Source: Pseudomonadota bacterium (GTDB lineage: Bacteria; Myxococcota; UBA9042; PHBI01). From it: a DNA stretch of 37,374 nucleotides. The position numbers and the translations under genes were made by a program. The notes below the pieces were generated by a model. It was given only the letters and a program-made list of their open reading frames with translations, did no database searches and had not been told where the DNA came from. The stretch's first letter is position 1. Each line of letters opens with the position of its first letter. Below are positions 28,929 to 37,152 of the stretch, in pieces. The stretch is taken from the NCBI GenBank assembly GCA_005772945.1, contig SXIE01000416.1, positions 1 through 37,374 on the forward strand, read 5' to 3'.

Positions 28929-30011
28929 ATGCGGAAGCTCAAAGTGACGGCGGCGGTGGGTGGCGCGGTGATGTGTACGTTCGCGGCGTGTGGTGACGGC
29001 GGTCAAGCGCCGGCCTCGCGCCAAGCGAGCTTCAGCGAGGCCGAGCAAGCGGCCTGCCTCGAGGGCTGGCAGAAGTGCATCGATGGCGGCGGCGACGAGA
29101 GCGCGTGCAAGGCCGGGTATCAGCAGTGCGCGGAGCAGGGCGGCGCGGTCCCCGGCGATGACACAACCGAGCCTCCCAAGGAAGAGCCGGGCCCGGGCGA
29201 CACGGGCGACACGGGCAGCGGGCCGGTGGCGAACGACTGCCAGGCGGCGCTCGACGCGTGCTTCGCGGCGGGTGAGTCGAGCGAAGTCTGCAAGGGCAAG
29301 TACGAATTCTGCGCAGCCGCGACGCCGACCGACCCCGGCACGAACCCCGACCCCACGACGGTCAACCCGGGCTGCCCCGATTTCGACTACAGCGTGTGCG
29401 TGAGCTCGGGCGGAACGCCCGAGGAGTGCAAGGCCAAGCTCGAAATCTGCCAGAACCTGACCCCGGTCGAGCCGAACCCCGAAGAGCTCCCGCCCGCCCC
29501 GTCGGCCGAAGAGGAGTGCCAGAAGCTGACCGCGGCGTGCTTCGAGACGGCCGAGGATCCGAGCGTTTGCAAGGAGAAGTACGAGGCGTGCGTCGCCGGG
29601 TTCTACCCGGAGGTCATCCCCGAGCCGGTCGCCAACGACTGCGCCGCGGCGGCCCAGGCGTGCTTCGATGCGGGCGAGGACCCCGAAGTCTGCAAGAAGA
29701 AGCAGGAGCTCTGCCTGGGTTACGAGCCGCCGCCGGCCGCCGACCTCTGCCAGGACGCATTCGCCGCGTGTGTCGCGGGTGGGGTTGACGAAGTCACGTG
29801 CAAAGAGAAACTGATGGCCTGCGAGGGCTGGTTCGTGGAGCCCCCGACGGACCCCGGCACGGGGTCGGACGACAAGGGCAATGCATGCCTCGCGGGGCTC
29901 GACGCCTGCCTGGGCGTGGCCGGCAGCGAGACCCAGGTCGATGCCTGCTACAATGGATTCCAGGCGTGTGATTGGTCGGTGCGACAGGCGGAAGGTGGTG
30001 CTGAGTTCTGA
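28929..30011 (+). CDS. Lipoprotein with seven four-Cys helical-hairpin repeats
   Basis: A 360-residue predicted lipoprotein (lipid Cys21 in FAACGDG) with seven repeats, each with four Cys, spaced C-x6-C-x9-C-x6-C. The first Cys of the repeats are residues 43, 104, 149, 197, 238, 274 and 320. Repeat 3 has x7 in the first gap and repeat 7 has x12 in the middle. A typical unit reads CFETAEDPSVCKEKYEAC. The spacing suggests helical hairpins clamped by two disulfides, joined by acidic Pro-rich linkers, so an exported stalk-like or binding protein. I do not recognise the family. AGGAG lies upstream of the ATG at 28929. It is the first gene of a five-gene cluster and shares a base with the sigma factor gene (TGATG). 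The 109-bp upstream gap holds CGAATATTCG (28833-28842) but no convincing promoter. Confidence 0.85.
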   Translation: MRKLKVTAAVGGAVMCTFAACGDGGQAPASRQASFSEAEQAACLEGWQKCIDGGGDESACKAGYQQCAEQGGAVPGDDTTEPPKEEPGPGDTGDTGSGPVANDCQAALDACFAAGESSEVCKGKYEFCAAATPTDPGTNPDPTTVNPGCPDFDYSVCVSSGGTPEECKAKLEICQNLTPVEPNPEELPPAPSAEEECQKLTAACFETAEDPSVCKEKYEACVAGFYPEVIPEPVANDCAAAAQACFDAGEDPEVCKKKQELCLGYEPPPAADLCQDAFAACVAGGVDEVTCKEKLMACEGWFVEPPTDPGTGSDDKGNACLAGLDACLGVAGSETQVDACYNGFQACDWSVRQAEGGAEF

Positions 30012-30511
30012 TGGGTGAGCCGCAGCCGAAGGACGGGATGGACATCGCTGCGCTGTACAAGCGCTACGGTCCTCTCGTCCTTCGGCGCGGACGCCGCTTC
30101 CTCGGCGACTCGGAAGCCGAGGAAATCGTTCATGAAGTCTTCCTGCGTGCCATCGAGCACGCGCACGAGTTCCGCGGCGAGGCCTCCCCCTCGACGTGGC
30201 TCTTCCGGGTCACGACCCACCTCTGCTTGAACCGACTTCGGGACCGTCGGCGGCAGGGCGAGCTTCTGACACAGCACGGTCCCACGGTCTGGGCGCAGAC
30301 CGATTCGGGGCAGGGTCCCGAGGCACACGCACTGCTCAATCAGCTCTGGCGCTCGTTGAGCGAGGAGCTCGTCATGATCGGCATCTACTACTACATCGAT
30401 GGGCTGACGACCGCGGAGATCGGGCGGATGCTCGGGGTCAGCGACCGCACGATCGCGAACCGGCTGAAGGACATCGCCAAGCACGCCGAGGGCGTCGGAG
30501 ACGCGGCATGA
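30011..30511 (+). CDS. ECF-type RNA polymerase sigma factor
   Basis: A 166-residue sigma-70 family factor of the extracytoplasmic-function type. Region 2 is at about 12-80 (YGPLVLRRGRRFLGDSEAEEIVHEVFLRAIEH, with FRGEASPSTWLFRVTTHLCLNRLRDRRR) and region 4 at about 105-160, including the helix-turn-helix LTTAEIGRMLGVSDRTIANRLKDI. There is no region 1 or 3. The start overlaps the lipoprotein stop, and its own stop overlaps the anti-sigma gene. It should direct polymerase to envelope-stress or regulon promoters when released; autoregulation of this cluster is the family rule but the -35/-10 site is not evident. Confidence 0.93.
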   Translation: MGEPQPKDGMDIAALYKRYGPLVLRRGRRFLGDSEAEEIVHEVFLRAIEHAHEFRGEASPSTWLFRVTTHLCLNRLRDRRRQGELLTQHGPTVWAQTDSGQGPEAHALLNQLWRSLSEELVMIGIYYYIDGLTTAEIGRMLGVSDRTIANRLKDIAKHAEGVGDAA

Positions 30512-31371
30512 GCGCGCTCGACCGCGGAGGACACCTGTCGGAGCTCGCGCTCGATCGGTACCGCTTCGACCTGGCGGAAGCAGCACCCGAGCTGCGGCGC
30601 GAGGTCGAGACCCATCTCGCCGCATGCGCCGAGTGCCGCGGGGTGATGGCGGCGCTCGAGACCGAGGATGCGGGTTTCGCGCTGGTGCCACCTTTGCAGA
30701 TTGGTGCAAGCGTGAACGCTCCGGCGAGCGACGCGGGACACGGCACGGAGGCCAAGGTCATCTCGCTGGCCGAGCGCCGCGCGCAGCGCCGGGCCGCCTG
30801 GACGACGGGGATCGTGGTGGTGCTCGCGGCGGCGGCGGCCGTCTTGCTGTTGGCGCGCTCGGACCTGATGGGGGATCCGAATGGTCCCGAGAGCCCCGAC
30901 CGAATCACCTTGCGCGGCGGCGCGATCGACTTCGAGATCATCGTCGACGACGGGCACGCGTCGCGGCTCGTGGCCGACGGCGCGACGGTCCACCCGGGCG
31001 AGCGGATGGCGTTTCGGATCAAGGCGCGCACCGACGGCTTCCTCGCCATTGTGGGCCGCGATGACACGGGCGTCGCCTACGCGTGCTATCCTCCGGGCGC
31101 CGAGCTCGGGGCCGTGCAGGCCGTCGCGGTGACGCATGCCGTGGAGCCCGAGGATCTGCCCGTGGCCCTTCGTTTCGACAGCGTGGTCGGCACCGAGCGC
31201 ATCAGCGCCGTCTTCTGCACGACGCCGTTCACGGCCGCCGAGGCCGCGACGCTGGCCGCCGACGGCGCCGCCCCGCGCGAGGGATGTCACGTCCGCACGC
31301 TGTCTCTGCAAAAGCGGCCGACCGGCCCGGACGGGACGGGCACGAGCGGCACCCCTGGGGCGCCTCGATGA
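30508..31371 (+). CDS. Membrane anti-sigma factor with DUF4384-like outer domain
   Basis: A 287-residue protein. The cytoplasmic N-terminus has the zinc anti-sigma motif H-x3-C-x2-C (His36, Cys40, Cys43 in THLAACAEC). One membrane helix is at about 98-117 (TTGIVVVLAAAAAVLLLA). The periplasmic part (about 130-275) resembles DUF4384: RMAFRIKARTDGFLAIVGRD and SVVGTERISAVFC. DUF4384 domains are frequently found with caspase-like peptidases in bacteria, and a caspase gene follows directly. The ATG at 30508 overlaps the sigma stop by 4 bp. It most likely holds the sigma factor at the membrane, and the outer domain probably receives the signal (inference). The periplasmic domain also has Cys residues (YACYPP, AVFCTT, REGCHV). 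Confidence 0.85.
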   Translation: MSALDRGGHLSELALDRYRFDLAEAAPELRREVETHLAACAECRGVMAALETEDAGFALVPPLQIGASVNAPASDAGHGTEAKVISLAERRAQRRAAWTTGIVVVLAAAAAVLLLARSDLMGDPNGPESPDRITLRGGAIDFEIIVDDGHASRLVADGATVHPGERMAFRIKARTDGFLAIVGRDDTGVAYACYPPGAELGAVQAVAVTHAVEPEDLPVALRFDSVVGTERISAVFCTTPFTAAEAATLAADGAAPREGCHVRTLSLQKRPTGPDGTGTSGTPGAPR

Positions 31372-32930
31372 GCCCGAAATGTGGCTGGCTCGCACTACTC
31401 CTGGTCGCGATGGGCATGGGCCAAACCGCCCACGCGGCCGATCGTTATGCGATCATCGTCGGCTCGAACGCCGGCGACCGCGACGAGCCGCGCCTCTCGT
31501 ACGCCGAGCACGACGCGCAGCGCCTCGCCGAGGTGCTGACGCGCATCGGCGGCGTGGCGCCCGAAAACTTGGTGCTGCTCCTCGCGCCCGATGCGGGTGC
31601 GGTCGAGCGCGCGCTGACCTCGCTCGCCGGGCGCATTCCCGCCGGTCCGCCCAAGACCGGCCCGGTCCTCTTCATCTATTATAGTGGGCATGCCGACGCG
31701 CAGTCGCTGCACCTGCGCGGGACGCATCTCGCCTTCGGCGATCTGAAGAAGGCGGTGCGCGCGATCCCGGCCGAGATCTCGGTCTTCATCGTCGACGCGT
31801 GCCGCTCGGGCGGCCTCGTCCGCACCAAGGGCGCGGTCCCGACCGAGCGCTTCGACATCAAGCTCCAAGACGACCTGAAGAGCGAAGGCCTGGCGATCCT
31901 GACGAGCTCCTCGGCCAGCGAAGACTCGCAGGAATCCGAGCGCCTCGGCGGCGGCGTCTTCACGCATCACCTGGTCACGGGTCTCCTCGGCGCCGCCGAT
32001 TCGTCGCGCGATCAGCGCGTCTCGCTGACCGAGGCCTATCGCTACGCGTACCAGCAGACGCTGGCCGCGACGAGCGTCACCGACTTCGTGCAGCACCCGA
32101 CCTTCGCCTTCGAAATCAAAGGCGAACGCGAGCTCATCATCACGCACACCGAGGGCAACGCGGGCTTTGGGCGCCTGCACCTCGCCGCCCCCGGGCACTA
32201 TCTCGTCTTCGAGCGCTTCGGCGCGCGCGAGCTCGCCGCCGAGCTCGATGCCGGCCAGAATACGGAGCTGCTTCTGCCGCCCGGGCCCTACCTCGTGCGG
32301 CGCCGCGAAACGGCCGTCGTCTACGAGCGCGAGGTCCGCCTGATCGCCAACGAACGCGCCACCATCGCGGCCGCCGATCTCGCGCAGGTCCCCTATCGTC
32401 ACGCGGTCCGCAAAGGCTACGGCCAGGTCCGCCGCTCGGCCTTCTCGCTCGGCGGCGACGTCGAAGTGATCGGCCCCATCGTCGCCGAATCCGGCGCCAT
32501 CGGCACCGTCGCCATCGCCGCCCAGCTCGACCTCCAAGACCTGGCGCTCCGGGCGCGCGTCCGCTTCGGGCACGGCTTCACCGAGGCTGGCGGCGCCAAC
32601 AAATCCGAGCTGCTCGTGGGCGCCGACCTCGGCATCTACAAGCTCTTCGATCTCGGGCCGCACGGCTTCGGCTTCGGCGTTCGGCTCGGTGCCGATTGGA
32701 TCCGCCAGGCCTTCGATTCCCGCGGCAACGCGCCCGCCCGCAACCAATTCGCCGGCCGCGGCGGGCCCTTCCTGCGCGCCGAGTTCGCGCTCGCGCCGAC
32801 GGTCGCGCTGACCCTCGACGGCGGCGTCGACGCCTACCTCATCGACGCCGCGCAGCCCGACGGCGGCTCCGCGCTCGAAGCGCGCGTCGTGCCGGTCGGC
32901 ACCATCGGTTTCGGTATCATGCTGCCCTAG
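31368..32930 (+). CDS. Exported caspase-family peptidase with C-terminal barrel-like domain
   Basis: A 520-residue protein. The signal peptide (MSPKCGWLALLLVAMGMGQTAHA) is probably cleaved near residue 23. The caspase/C14 domain follows (about 25-255) with the catalytic dyad His108 (FIYYSGHAD) and Cys145 (FIVDACRSGG); ILTSSSASEDSQE and GGGVFTHHLV are usual caspase p10-like segments. Residues 255-345 are beta-rich (GHYLVFERFGARELAAELDAG, LLPPGPYLVRRRE). The last 175 residues alternate hydrophobic and polar, have Gly-rich strands, and end GFGIMLP, as in an outer-membrane barrel. The start at 31368 overlaps the anti-sigma stop. It should be a periplasm-facing or outer-membrane cysteine protease. 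Substrate specificity cannot be read. Confidence 0.85.
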   Translation: MSPKCGWLALLLVAMGMGQTAHAADRYAIIVGSNAGDRDEPRLSYAEHDAQRLAEVLTRIGGVAPENLVLLLAPDAGAVERALTSLAGRIPAGPPKTGPVLFIYYSGHADAQSLHLRGTHLAFGDLKKAVRAIPAEISVFIVDACRSGGLVRTKGAVPTERFDIKLQDDLKSEGLAILTSSSASEDSQESERLGGGVFTHHLVTGLLGAADSSRDQRVSLTEAYRYAYQQTLAATSVTDFVQHPTFAFEIKGERELIITHTEGNAGFGRLHLAAPGHYLVFERFGARELAAELDAGQNTELLLPPGPYLVRRRETAVVYEREVRLIANERATIAAADLAQVPYRHAVRKGYGQVRRSAFSLGGDVEVIGPIVAESGAIGTVAIAAQLDLQDLALRARVRFGHGFTEAGGANKSELLVGADLGIYKLFDLGPHGFGFGVRLGADWIRQAFDSRGNAPARNQFAGRGGPFLRAEFALAPTVALTLDGGVDAYLIDAAQPDGGSALEARVVPVGTIGFGIMLP

Positions 32931-32946
32931 CCAGGAAGGAGTCCGC

Positions 32947-33951
32947 ATGAATCCGCATACGCGCCTTTTCTTGGCCGCAACGACCGCCGCCGCTGCCGCC
33001 GCTTGCGGCGACCCGCTCGTCGACGGGACCTACCCCGGCGAGGCGCTCTTCACCATCTCGGGCTGGGTCAACCTCACGACCGCCCCCGAGAACATCAGCA
33101 AAGATCCCGACGGCGGCGCTCTGCGCGTCGCGGTGTTCTGGGCGCCCGCCAAAGACGCCACGCAGTACAGCCTACCGGCGGCGGTCGAGCAGACCGTCGG
33201 GGCCGACGGCACGTTCCCGGCGCGCTTCAAGCTGTCGCTCTACGAGCCGCCCTCGGACTCGGTGCTGCGCGCGGAGTCGGACGGCAGCGGTCAATTCGCG
33301 GTCGCGCTCATCGTGGCGTACCTCGATGCGAACGGAAACCGCCGCTGGGATCAAGGCTCCGAGAACCTCATCGGCGGCGCCGAGCAGCGCGTCCTCATGT
33401 ACACGCCCGACGGCGTGACGGGCGCCCTCTTCGGCCAGTTGCCGGCGGGATTCCACCGCGTCATTCCGACGGCCGGCTGCGACGTCGTGGCCAGCGGCGT
33501 GCGCTACGAGGCGGACCTGGATCCGGACCTCGACCTCGCCGTCTCGGGCGACTTCCCCAGCGACATCGTCTTCGACTTCGACTGCGACGGGAAGATCGAC
33601 GAGTGGACGGGCGTGTGCCCGACGCTCGAGTCGATCCGCTTCAACTGCCGCGACGTCGAGGTTCCGAGCGATCCGAAGATGTGCTCGCTCTGTGAATCGA
33701 CCCTGTGGGCGATCGGCTCGGACGCGCTCGGATGCGATGCCTGGGCCAACAAGTACTTCGATCTCCTGCCGTCCAAGGAGGTCGTCAACGACTGGATCCA
33801 GTGCCGCACGAAAGCGGGCGCCGAGCTCGAGTGGAGTTGTCCGAGCTGCGCCTGCGAGTCGATCTACGGCCAGTGCAAGCTGTCGGGACTCGACCCGTCG
33901 TTCGAGAGCTGCGTCAAGCACAGGTCCGCGTGCGAGAGCGGCTTCAACTGA
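32947..33951 (+). CDS. Lipoprotein with a terminal four-Cys repeat
   Basis: A 334-residue lipoprotein with lipid Cys20 after an Ala-rich signal peptide (AAAAAACGDP). The middle part is beta-rich and includes YLDANGNRRWDQGSEN and FDFDCDGKIDEW, Asp/Asn-rich turns resembling calcium-binding loops. The C-terminal third is Cys-rich, and its end (Cys303, 310, 322, 329) has spacing C-x6-C-x11-C-x6-C, the same as repeat 7 of the lipoprotein at 28929 apart from one residue. AGGAAGGAG stands before the ATG, 16 bp after the caspase gene. It is the last gene of the five-gene cluster. I do not recognise the family. Confidence 0.8.
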   Translation: MNPHTRLFLAATTAAAAAACGDPLVDGTYPGEALFTISGWVNLTTAPENISKDPDGGALRVAVFWAPAKDATQYSLPAAVEQTVGADGTFPARFKLSLYEPPSDSVLRAESDGSGQFAVALIVAYLDANGNRRWDQGSENLIGGAEQRVLMYTPDGVTGALFGQLPAGFHRVIPTAGCDVVASGVRYEADLDPDLDLAVSGDFPSDIVFDFDCDGKIDEWTGVCPTLESIRFNCRDVEVPSDPKMCSLCESTLWAIGSDALGCDAWANKYFDLLPSKEVVNDWIQCRTKAGAELEWSCPSCACESIYGQCKLSGLDPSFESCVKHRSACESGFN

Positions 33952-34001
33952 GCGACTGAGCCGGATTCAGGCACGGGCGGCGCGCGCCCGCTATCGCTCA
34001 G
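33948..34001. terminator. Nested dyad between convergent genes
   Basis: Outer arms CTGAGCGA (33948-33955) and TCGCTCAG (33994-34001) are perfect complements and each covers a stop codon of one of the two convergent lipoprotein genes. Inside is a second hairpin, CGGGCG-GCGCG-CGCCCG (33974-33990). This fits a bidirectional transcript end, although no T run follows. Confidence 0.5.
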
Positions 34002-36013
34002 CACCCGCCGCCGTAAGTGCAGATACTCTCGACGCATTTGCCCGTCACGCAGCTCGCGCGGCTGGTGCATTCCGAGTCGTCGTCACACGGGCGCGGGATG
34101 CAGCTCGACAGGATCCGCACGTCGTCGATCGACACGCCGTTCCCGGTGTTGGCGACCCCGTCGACGGTGTCGAAATCCAGGCGCACCTGGACGAACTGCC
34201 CGGCCGCCCACGACACGTCGACCACAACCTCCTGCCAGCTGCCGACGGTCAGCTCCGATTTGTCGACGAGCTTCACGGTCTCGCTGCCGTTGGCCCCGAC
34301 GACCAGCGAGGCCTGGAACTTGTCGCGACTCGCGTCGCCCTCGACCGCGAGCGACACCCAGAAGACGAGCTGCAGCGAGACCCCGTCGGGCAGGCGTACA
34401 CGCGGGCTCGTGGCGCTGCCCTGATTGCGACCGCCCGACTCGTAGAAGCCCAGGGTCGGATGGCCGTAATAGAGGACCGACGTCCCGCTCTTGGCACTTG
34501 CATTTGCATGCAAGCGCCAGCCGATGTTGTTCATCGCCGGGCTCAACGTCCAGGGCAGCGTGCCGCTGTCGAAGTGCTCGGTCTGCACGTCCGGGATGCA
34601 GCAGCCGGGCGCGAACGAGAACGCGTTGGTGCACAGCCCACCGGCCTGGCATGCGTCTATGGTGCAGTCCTGGGCGTCGTCGCAGTCGGCGTCGACCGCG
34701 CAGCAGGCGTAGGCGTAGCGGCACTGCCCCGCGCTGCAGGTGCCGGCCGTGCACGCGTCGCCGTCGTCGCAATCGGCGTTCTCCACGCAGCAGATCGGCG
34801 CGTTCTTGCAGTGTTGGTCGGCGCAGACGTCCTCGGTGCACGCGTTCGCGTCGTTGCAGTCCGCGGCGCTCGTGCAGCACCCGGCGCGGGCCGTGTGTGC
34901 GCAGGCCTCCCCCGGCAGCGGGCATACATCGTCGGTGCATGCGTCCCCGTCGTCGCATTCGAACGCCGTCTGGCAGCACTCGGCACGCGCGGCGAACGTG
35001 CAGCTCCCGTCTGCACCACAGGCATCGTCGGTGCAGGCGAGCCCGTCGTCGCAGCCGCGCGCGCTGTCGGCGCCGTCGCAGCACGCCATGAAGACGTGGA
35101 CATCGTCGAGGTAGAAGCCCTCGAACTGGTTGATGCGCTCGTCGCCCGTGTCGGCCTCGAAGGCGATGCGCGCGCCGGCCGGCAGGTCGCTGCCGAGCGG
35201 CACCGCGATCGGGACGAAGACCCCGCGCGTGTCGCCGAGGATCGCGTCCGAGGTCCATAATTCGCGGCTCTGAGCCCCCTCGCCCGCGCCCCACACGAGC
35301 AGCACGCGCAGGCGGTCGAAGCCCAGCGTCTGCTCGGTCTCGGCCCACAGCCAGAACGTCAAGACCCCCGGATACCCCGGCGCGACCTCCAGCGGCGCGG
35401 TCGTCGCGGTCGCGGCGGCACGCTCGCCGACCTCGTAGCTCCCGCTCGCCGCGTCGCCGAAGTAGAGACTGCTCGCCCCGCGCCCCGCGCGCCGCGTCGA
35501 AATGGACCACGTCGCGAGACTCGGCGTGACCTTCTGTACCTCGAGCTGCACGCTCGTTCCGGCCTCGAAACCGGCCGCGAACGTGTCGGCCCCGAAGCCG
35601 CCGACCTCGATATCGGGGTTGCATTGGAAGCACGCGTGGGCCGGATCGGCCGCCCCTATGGCGACGCACGTCGGCGCCGTGCCCGGTGCGTCGATCACGC
35701 AGCCGGTCGCCTCGGGCGCCGGCCCCGCCCAGGTGCACGTGCCGCCCGCGCAGCGCCCGGCGGCACACGCGAGCACGCAGTCGCCGTCGTCCGTGCAGGC
35801 GCGCGGAACCACCGAATCCGGCACGTCGGTCACGTCGGACGCCTCGCTCTGGGTCTCGACCGCCGTCGGAACCGCGGTATCGACGACCGCGTCGATGGCG
35901 CTGTCGCTCGCGGCGTCGGCCGCGTCGACGCCGTGCGCATCGCCCGCACCCTCGTCGCCACCGCACGCGACTGCCACAAGGCCGAGGACCGCGACCGCGA
36001 CGAACCGCCTCAC
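33998..36013 (-). CDS. Large Cys-rich lipoprotein with slime-mould-type repeats
   Basis: A 671-residue predicted lipoprotein. The start is GTG 36013 (VRRFVAVAVLGLVAVACGGD, lipid Cys at about 17), overlapping the kinase stop. A low-complexity Asp/Ala/Val linker follows. There are two related jelly-roll-like domains, one before and one after the repeats (each ends in a DDV.. segment followed by Cys: LDDVHVFMACC and IDDVRILSSC). Between them lie about five Cys repeats of the type CDDGDACTDDVC, which resemble the Dictyostelium CTDC repeat (PF00526) found in many myxobacterial surface proteins. A final Cys-rich tail (CDDDSECTSRASC) ends the protein. It should be outside or on the outer membrane and may bind a ligand or surface. 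It is coupled to the histidine kinase gene upstream. Confidence 0.85.
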   Translation of the reverse strand: MRRFVAVAVLGLVAVACGGDEGAGDAHGVDAADAASDSAIDAVVDTAVPTAVETQSEASDVTDVPDSVVPRACTDDGDCVLACAAGRCAGGTCTWAGPAPEATGCVIDAPGTAPTCVAIGAADPAHACFQCNPDIEVGGFGADTFAAGFEAGTSVQLEVQKVTPSLATWSISTRRAGRGASSLYFGDAASGSYEVGERAAATATTAPLEVAPGYPGVLTFWLWAETEQTLGFDRLRVLLVWGAGEGAQSRELWTSDAILGDTRGVFVPIAVPLGSDLPAGARIAFEADTGDERINQFEGFYLDDVHVFMACCDGADSARGCDDGLACTDDACGADGSCTFAARAECCQTAFECDDGDACTDDVCPLPGEACAHTARAGCCTSAADCNDANACTEDVCADQHCKNAPICCVENADCDDGDACTAGTCSAGQCRYAYACCAVDADCDDAQDCTIDACQAGGLCTNAFSFAPGCCIPDVQTEHFDSGTLPWTLSPAMNNIGWRLHANASAKSGTSVLYYGHPTLGFYESGGRNQGSATSPRVRLPDGVSLQLVFWVSLAVEGDASRDKFQASLVVGANGSETVKLVDKSELTVGSWQEVVVDVSWAAGQFVQVRLDFDTVDGVANTGNGVSIDDVRILSSCIPRPCDDDSECTSRASCVTGKCVESICTYGGGC

Positions 36014-37152
36014 GCCGACCCCGGCCAGAACAGACACGCCACCAGCCCGCTCGCCGCGGGATCGGGCAGCCCCTCGAGCCACGCGCAGGCTCCGTGTCGG
36101 TCGGCGATCTTCTTGACCAACGCGAGTCCCATCCCCGTCCCGGGCGGGGCCTCGGGGTCGTGTGCGTGCTTGTCGAACATGCCGAAGACGCGCTCGCGCA
36201 CCGCCTCCGGAACGCCCGGCCCATCATCGCGGAAGCGGACGAGCCAGCCGCTCGGACGCGCTTCGCCCGCCGCGGTCGCCTCACGCGGGTCGCGCGCGGC
36301 CTCGATGCTGATCTCGCACCTCGGCGGTTCCCGCGGGTTCCAGCGGATCGCGTTATCGAGGATATGCCGGAACGTCGCGGCGAGCGCCCGCGCATCGGCC
36401 GGTACGCGCGCCGCGCTCCCGGCCTCGGGGGTCACGACCACCGTGATGTTCGGACGCCGCTTGAACCATTGCGTGCGCGCCTCGGCCGCGGCCTCGTCTG
36501 CGAGCGCGACCAGATCCACGACCGCCGTTTCGAGCGGCCGCGTGGCGACAACGATCCAGTCCGAGAGGTGGTCGATGAGGCGCGTCAGGCGGTGCCCCGC
36601 GGCCGTGATGCGACGCAGCCAATCGAGGCTCTCGTCGTCGGGCGCGCGCCGCGATTCCTCGATGTCGAGCAGCAGCGTCGACAGCCCGACCACGCCCTGC
36701 AGATGCCCGCGCAGCTCGTGACGCAGGCCCGACTTGAGCGTCACCATGTCGCGCTCGAGCACGCGCGCGACCCCGCCAGTCGCAAGGCGCAGGGCGCGCG
36801 TGCGGGCCGCCGCCGCGATGTGGCATGCGAGCGCCTCGGGCGTGAACGGACGCGGCACGAACGCGTGGACACCGGAGTGGGTCGACGGGCGCGGCACGCC
36901 CTGGAAGTCGTCCACGATGAGCAGGCCGACCGCCTCGATCCGGTGTGCCACGAGCGCATCGAGCAGCACGTAACCCGGCTCGGGCGCGAGCGATTGCGGC
37001 ACGAGCACGATCGGCGTGTCGAGCCCGGCGGCCGCCGAGATCAGCTCCGAGAGCCCGATCGCGGTCGTGACGGCGTAGCCCGTCCCGAGCAGATCGCGGA
37101 TCGCTTCGTGCCCGACGTACCCTGGATCGACGACGACGATGACCGGTATCAC
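36010..37152 (-). CDS. Soluble histidine kinase with degenerate receiver domain
   Basis: A 380-residue cytoplasmic kinase without membrane segments. The N-terminal 115 residues have a receiver-like layout, but the phospho-acceptor position reads IVLVPQS (Pro52 where Asp is expected) and the usual Lys is Arg101 (FVPRPF), so phosphorylation is not expected. The dimerisation box keeps His145 (LRHELRGHLQGV). The ATPase domain has the N box (HILDNAIRWNP), G1 (RDDGPGVPEA) and G2 (GTGMGLALVKKI). It is followed by the Cys-rich lipoprotein, whose GTG overlaps its stop. No cognate response regulator is adjacent. The start at 37152 is the first ATG of the frame and leads straight into the receiver strand. 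Confidence 0.9.
   Translation of the reverse strand: MIPVIVVVDPGYVGHEAIRDLLGTGYAVTTAIGLSELISAAAGLDTPIVLVPQSLAPEPGYVLLDALVAHRIEAVGLLIVDDFQGVPRPSTHSGVHAFVPRPFTPEALACHIAAAARTRALRLATGGVARVLERDMVTLKSGLRHELRGHLQGVVGLSTLLLDIEESRRAPDDESLDWLRRITAAGHRLTRLIDHLSDWIVVATRPLETAVVDLVALADEAAAEARTQWFKRRPNITVVVTPEAGSAARVPADARALAATFRHILDNAIRWNPREPPRCEISIEAARDPREATAAGEARPSGWLVRFRDDGPGVPEAVRERVFGMFDKHAHDPEAPPGTGMGLALVKKIADRHGACAWLEGLPDPAASGLVACLFWPGSA

Follow-up and report, generated by a model that had tools for sequence, protein, structure and literature searches.

Five genes on the forward strand of contig SXIE01000416.1 (assembly GCA_005772945.1, a Pseudomonadota bacterium that GTDB places in the Myxococcota) appear to have an envelope signalling module at their core, the whole 37,374-nucleotide stretch that was analysed being referred to below as the window. 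It is proposed that the caspase encoded by the fourth of these genes, anchored in the outer membrane and facing the periplasm, cuts the anti-sigma factor encoded by the third after a near-invariant Lys or Arg residue and so releases the extracytoplasmic function (ECF) sigma factor encoded by the second, a reading to which we would give a probability of about one half. It rests on gene order and spacing, catalytic residues and a Lys/Arg-Gly pair, all of which can be read off directly, together with a predicted topology, a predicted barrel and a predicted preference for a basic P1 residue, and it is from these that we infer the activation and cleavage steps.

In outline, the caspase would be activated when its barrel, or else the lipoprotein encoded by gene 5, receives a signal; it would then process itself at Lys154-Gly155 and cut the anti-sigma factor at residue 136, just outside the inner membrane; general membrane proteases would then complete degradation of the anti-sigma factor, and the freed sigma factor would transcribe its targets, perhaps including its own operon. 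A wider proposal, in which the outer-membrane caspase would act as site-1 protease in a relay from the envelope to the genes, with the barrel sensing the surface, maturation occurring at Lys154-Gly155, the anti-sigma factor undergoing a cut of the same type, and many such copies running in parallel but insulated from one another, is put forward tentatively, at somewhat short of even odds.

The gene cluster

The features referred to in the text are as follows.

28929..30011, + strand: gene 1, lipoprotein (360 amino acids) containing seven units of the CX6CX9CX6C type; accessory, mostly unconserved
30011..30511, + strand: gene 2, ECF sigma factor (166 amino acids; Pfam and NCBIfam)
30508..31371, + strand: gene 3, predicted anti-sigma factor with HxxxCxxC, one transmembrane helix and a periplasmic DUF4384-type domain (287 amino acids)
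30913..30918, + strand: codons for Arg136-Gly137 in the anti-sigma linker, the proposed cut site (near-invariant Lys/Arg-Gly)
31368..32930, + strand: gene 4, caspase with a signal-like N-terminus and a C-terminal barrel (predicted) (520 amino acids)
31443..32108, + strand: caspase domain, residues 26-247, with His108, Asp143 and Cys145
31827..31832, + strand: codons for Lys154-Gly155, in the loop of gene 4 after Cys145, the proposed self-processing site
32436..32924, + strand: eight-strand outer-membrane barrel (predicted), residues 357-519 of gene 4
32947..33951, + strand: gene 5, lipoprotein with a Cys-rich C-terminal half (334 amino acids); recurrent partner of the caspase

An earlier reading of the DNA alone (the original prediction) had described a five-gene cluster at 28929..33951 in which successive genes overlap by 1, 4 and 4 bp and the last is set apart by 16 bp; this layout is confirmed, all five open reading frames being on the + strand. 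Its identification of gene 2 as an ECF sigma factor and of gene 4 as a caspase is upheld by matches in Pfam: gene 2 matches Sigma70_r2 (4.1e-19) and r4_2 (1.8e-6), so that sigma regions 2 and 4 are both present, while gene 4 matches Peptidase_C14 (2.5e-11) and has the caspase fold of that family.

For gene 3, which had been described as an anti-sigma factor with a DUF4384 domain, the Pfam scores fall below the curated cut-offs for both DUF4384 (23.2 bits against 27) and zf-HC2 (17.7 against 22.2), but the expected features are nonetheless there, in that the protein has His36, Cys40 and Cys43 in an HxxxCxxC arrangement, a single transmembrane helix and a DUF4384-type domain, and its gene lies beside that of an ECF sigma factor, as is characteristic of an anti-sigma domain (ASD) protein. 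Among 54 relatives of gene 3, a match to DUF4384 is found in 29 and to zf-HC2 in 20 (E <= 0.01), and some relatives exceed the curated cut-off for DUF4384. On the combination of HxxxCxxC, single helix and DUF4384-type domain, the product of gene 3 is a predicted zinc-binding anti-sigma factor.

Genes 1 and 5 had both been called Cys-repeat lipoproteins. This is apt for gene 1, in which five of the seven units match CX6CX9CX6C exactly, but not for gene 5, which is Cys-rich (15 Cys in all, 14 of them within the C-terminal half) yet is no repeat protein like gene 1. A protein search for relatives of gene 1 returned only a single near-identical protein.

Conservation of the sigma factor, anti-sigma factor and caspase

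With the gene 4 caspase as query, a protein search retrieved 606 sequences at E <= 1e-3. An alignment (A1) of 26 of the 120 caspase matches listed was used to scan genome contigs, yielding 78 loci that were fetched for the caspase alone, most of which proved to have neighbouring sigma and anti-sigma genes, and with 148 added this made 226 loci in addition to the window; 90 caspase places from a phylum-wide listing were fetched, hand-picked against near copies. Clustering at 90% identity of the 222 loci having a caspase match gave 193 clusters, from which 10 with weak caspases were excluded to leave 183 with strong ones (E < 1e-40), the window included. A second set, of 169 pairs, comprises clusters having the anti-sigma factor and caspase in order, with weak caspases kept and short anti-sigma matches excluded.

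Sigma and anti-sigma genes adjoin the caspase gene on the same strand in 158 of the 183 non-redundant loci, and divergently in two more. The order sigma, anti-sigma, caspase is seen in 147 of the 183 (and in one further locus where the anti-sigma match is split), while in 10 the caspase comes first, followed by sigma and anti-sigma, the two divergent loci having sigma and anti-sigma on the opposite strand. The other 23 comprise nine with anti-sigma and caspase, 12 with the caspase alone, one with sigma and caspase but no anti-sigma, and one with caspase and sigma at a contig end. In seven of the nine anti-sigma–caspase loci the available sequence extends 453-1,042 bp in front of the match. Of the 12 caspase-alone loci two are cut at the front edge, four were fetched with 435-900 bp behind and one has only 917 bp in front. 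Taking the nearest possible start, a 4-bp overlap joins sigma to anti-sigma in 109 of 147 loci and anti-sigma to caspase in 102 of 147. Because the same order and spacing recur in relatives, the layout is more than a matter of chance.

The association also holds when approached from the anti-sigma side: in a scan of six genomes, 44 of 49 anti-sigma matches (E <= 1.7e-19) lay within 2.5 kb of a caspase match, and in 42 of these cases both were on the same strand. In the phylum-level group to which G001 belongs (a genome with a contig labelled Pyxidicoccus), 153 of 195 genomes contain a caspase match at E <= 1e-60, and loci from Myxococcus and Pyxidicoccus are among the caspase matches. A deeper search found between 1 and 19 caspase matches per genome (E <= 1e-3, some of them weak) in 16 of 16 genomes, all of which had been picked as carriers of the locus, and in one Pyxidicoccus genome sigma and anti-sigma genes precede nine of the 12 caspase regions that were read (L079-L090), one of these with a weak caspase match. 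Several sigma/anti-sigma/caspase modules run in parallel within one genome.

As for the lipoproteins, 50 of 183 loci have a match to the gene 5 family that starts no more than 600 bp downstream of the caspase, and a further position, upstream, is seen in 18 of 183, whereas the gene 1 profile matches in just one of the 78 loci (L013); a Cys-rich neighbour was seen by eye in L107, among 19 loci read. Gene 1 is best regarded as lying outside the conserved core and as mostly local. The original prediction had staked itself on these genes being kept together in other genomes, and this proves to be so for the sigma, anti-sigma and caspase genes and in many cases for gene 5 as well, but not for gene 1.

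Two side observations concern the reach of the family. One locus carrying the module (L072) comes from a metagenome-assembled genome labelled Borreliella garinii, a label that is probably wrong. Far relatives of the anti-sigma factor and caspase also adjoin one another in L124-L128, L130 and L134, where a basic residue (Arg or Lys) mostly precedes Gly or Ser in the linker, L130 having Met-Gly, so that the pairing may predate the family counted here.

The caspase and its predicted barrel

His108, Asp143 and Cys145 are invariant in all 169 pairs, and the His-Cys dyad of family C14 is present, so that gene 4 would be, judged by its sequence, an active enzyme. Asp49 is almost as constant (Asp in 168 of 169 pairs, Glu in one). 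In MALT1 acidic residues on alpha1 and L4 are described, with opposite residues at similar positions in caspase-7 (PMC4357240), and members of C14B are stated to cleave after basic residues (PMC6426788). Going by their places in the first helix and before the catalytic Cys, Asp49 and Asp143 would map to these MALT1 positions, and since both are acidic the S1 pocket is predicted to be specific for basic residues, cutting after Lys or Arg in the manner of C14B.

A candidate site for such a specificity occurs within the caspase itself. Nine residues after Cys145 lies Lys154-Gly155 (Lys in 164 of the 169 pairs, Arg in 2 and Pro in 3; Gly in 167), within a loop, residues 147-185, that is modelled as disordered, having a predicted local distance difference test (pLDDT) score under 50. 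In animal caspases, self-processing takes place in the loop after the catalytic Cys.

The C-terminal part of gene 4 (residues 357-519) forms eight strands in the structure model, with fold matches to OmpX, OmpA, NspA and Ail, and this last third of the protein is predicted to be an outer-membrane barrel. The "exported caspase" of the original prediction is borne out as regards the signal-like N-terminus, but the protein would not be merely exported. A sequence search of the PDB with the single caspase gave no match.

The caspase family and the many copies per genome might suggest a module for cell death or killing. Such an execution function appears very unlikely, as no toxin or pore-former family was found in the five genes using Pfam and NCBIfam (the Toxin_25 match of gene 1 is sub-threshold, at 13.8 bits against 25), and a barrel would confine the protease to the envelope of the cell that makes it.

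The Lys/Arg-Gly pair in the anti-sigma linker

In the anti-sigma alignment conservation is highest not at the zinc ligands, which are kept in 146-148 of 169 sequences, but at columns 137 (Gly in 164 of 169) and 136 (Lys in 154 and Arg in 12, hence basic in 166 of 169). The window protein has Arg136-Gly137. Over the 169 pairs this dipeptide lies a median of 13 residues past the best hydrophobic stretch, and so outside the membrane, and in the model of the window protein it falls in an unstructured stretch (residues 121-139) outside the modelled beta domain. A fold search with the anti-sigma factor matched beta-sandwich proteins, RhoGDI and Wzt among them, but too weakly to be used. The idea that the caspase might cut the outer domain of the anti-sigma factor, which had been suggested from the outset, gains from these data a near-invariant linker site to go with the predicted basic-specific pocket, and the cleavage itself would be the step that joins them. 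Separately, Cys237 and Cys260 in the periplasmic part of the anti-sigma factor (30508-31371; Cys in 70/169 and 87/169 respectively) may form a disulphide.

The same conserved site and the same linkage would also be seen if the anti-sigma factor instead restrained the caspase, the Lys/Arg-Gly linker occupying the active site as a pseudo-substrate until an envelope signal freed sigma factor and protease together. It fits with this that anti-sigma factor and caspase remain paired without a sigma factor in L086, L096 and L117. However, a basic residue followed by Gly resembles an ordinary substrate, and the data at hand fit cleavage too; we consider the pseudo-substrate arrangement improbable.

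Does the motif belong to the caspase or to the DUF4384 domain?

A more serious competitor would have the caspase as output only, with the DUF4384-bearing anti-sigma factor sensing the envelope, the sigma factor driving the operon, the caspase and lipoproteins remodelling periplasmic or surface proteins, and Lys-Gly being simply the structural start of the beta domain. Among loci drawn using DUF4384, Lys/Arg-Gly was present in 16 of 16 anti-sigma factors having a caspase (E < 1e-20) in the locus and in three of six having none at that threshold (one of these loci, L271, having a caspase match at 4.5e-5), whereas not one of 19 distinct DUF4384 proteins that are not anti-sigma factors carried it in the matching 12-residue stretch, L242 being borderline with Arg-Gly at its very edge. 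Anti-sigma factors L264, L265, L267, L272 and L273 likewise keep the DUF4384 domain but lack the motif. The domain can therefore do without the motif, which, as noted above, lies outside the modelled beta domain in any case. The output-only explanation is held to be less likely than cleavage.

A further control used 42 genomes without a caspase match at 1e-60, in seven of which the anti-sigma profile found a match. Three of these (L272, L273 and L274) are full-length anti-sigma factors without the motif, one (L275) has Lys-Gly and adjoins a caspase (4.7e-54), and in two (L277 and L278) the match is confined to the N-terminal part.

All the same, a number of observations weigh against cleavage by the neighbouring caspase as the reason for the motif. 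The seventh of these matches, L276, has Met-Gly at the aligned position and Arg-Gly eleven residues earlier. Six anti-sigma factors (L119, which is the same as L257, L120-L123 and L250) keep Lys-Gly with no adjacent caspase, so that the dipeptide may be there for the beta domain, as the output-only explanation would have it, or for a partner located elsewhere. That explanation is also favoured by L120-L122, where sigma and anti-sigma are accompanied not by a caspase but by a small exported protein that looks like a barrel. The motif is absent from L264 and L267, yet each of these genomes has one caspase elsewhere, and the motif-less sequences are mostly one close group (L264, L265/L274, L267 and L273 being close relatives). 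An intact caspase adjoins an anti-sigma factor with Met-Gly in L155, and there are exceptions beside weak-match caspases in L130 (Met-Gly) and L078 (Phe-Gly). A per-genome split of the motif (6/8 against 0/4) gives a Fisher p of 0.06, or 0.22 if L276 is counted as a carrier, for rows that are not independent. Orphan caspases also retain Lys154. Finally, coevolution (mutual information with average product correction, over 169 and 162 paired loci) is uninformative, with z of 10.9 for anti-sigma/caspase and 9.0 for sigma/caspase; nothing can be drawn from it, because sigma and caspase, which are expected not to touch, reach so high a value. The notion that Lys-Gly strictly marks anti-sigma factors with a caspase next to them was rejected, on account of L119-L123 and L250.

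The caspase-free loci L120, L121 and L122 belong to the three genomes G001, G002 and G003, the small exported protein having been judged barrel-looking by eye, and in each of these genomes anti-sigma factor and caspase also occur together elsewhere with no sigma gene (L086, L096 and L117). With both sets in the same three genomes, the partners of the module may be split between two places.

Other searches and neighbouring genes

A likeness between the two candidate sites was considered and set aside. Arg occurs at P3 in both proteins with an odds ratio of 7.2 (p 2.7e-7, uncorrected for kinship), but the P3 column pair (anti-sigma/caspase) is outside the first 2,500 of 72,974 in the mutual information ranking, and while the two sites of a locus are identical at P3 in 98 of 169 cases against a shuffled mean of 78, the tendency is reversed at P2' (27 against 39). 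In 141 stretches upstream of sigma genes no usable shared promoter motif was found, the enriched words being GC-rich and probably coding; GGAAC-N15-17-GTC/CGT occurs in six of the 141, and in one of the control stretches, which were taken from within the caspase genes of 147 loci.

Beyond gene 5, a convergent open reading frame of 694 amino acids (33998-36082, - strand) encodes a Cys-rich, lipoprotein-like product with CDD/DACT-type repeats by eye and no Pfam match at 1e-5, and at 36010-37152 (- strand) there is a histidine-kinase-type ATPase domain (HATPase_c, 1.9e-14).

Significance and comparison with known systems

The functions of prokaryotic caspases are largely open, and a large family of them here gains one candidate substrate, one candidate site and a readable output in the form of sigma activity. 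The module would link the outer membrane to transcription through a component of unusual build, in which protease and predicted barrel are joined, and its members occur in cultured genera (Myxococcus and Pyxidicoccus). If the proposal is true, myxobacteria would possess a network of caspases that signal across the periplasm, in many parallel copies. In the literature consulted no description of a sigma/anti-sigma/C14-caspase module was found, though ECF classification work may mention the neighbourhood, and it is our impression, formed without a dedicated literature search, that the fusion of a caspase with an outer-membrane barrel is new.

DegS of E. coli, a serine protease, is neither a caspase nor fused to a barrel, and in this it differs from gene 4. 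In the DegS-RseA-sigma E system as described in PMC10028731, it is nevertheless likewise an envelope protease by which a transmembrane anti-sigma factor is first cut.

Two systems associated with CRISPR have a similar logic. In Craspase (Csx29 TPR-CHAT, Csx30 and CASP-sigma, of type III-E), a caspase-like protease cuts a co-encoded inhibitor of an ECF-type sigma factor, according to PMC10028731, but that protease is a CHAT protein within a CRISPR effector and is triggered by RNA, whereas gene 4 belongs to the C14 caspases and has a predicted signal sequence and barrel. In CalpL/CalpT/CalpS (type III), a protease again cuts an anti-sigma factor and frees an ECF sigma factor, but CalpL, as PMC11417357 describes it, is unlike gene 4 in being a Lon protease with a SAVED domain that is activated by cyclic tetra-adenylate (cA4). 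Gene 4 is neither a CHAT nor a Lon-SAVED protease of the kind found in these systems: in Pfam at E <= 1 it matches C14 and C13 only, with no CHAT match, and because of this the module is not classed with them. In Haliangium ochraceum, a PCaspase cascade reportedly has a myxobacterial prokaryotic caspase acting on a sigma/inhibitor set, and is said to form part of a type III CRISPR response rather than an envelope system.

Among the ECF groups, ECF54 is likewise reported to have caspase-like (CHAT) neighbours proposed as regulators, but the proposal as given in PMC8999054 concerns a group without an anti-sigma factor, unlike the present module. DdvS-DdvA of Myxococcus xanthus is, like it, a myxobacterial ECF sigma factor with a transmembrane anti-sigma factor (PMC12288465, PMC4374960). 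The anti-sigma profile A2 matches the zinc-finger part of PDB entries 8rot, a "CHAT domain-containing protein" (2.2e-4), and 8rlz, DdvA (0.011). In 8rot (991 amino acids) an anti-sigma N-terminus and a caspase-like CHAT domain are combined in one chain, whereas here the caspase is a separate protein; even so, DdvS-DdvA and this anti-sigma/CHAT chain may be the nearest in kind to the present module within the myxobacteria.

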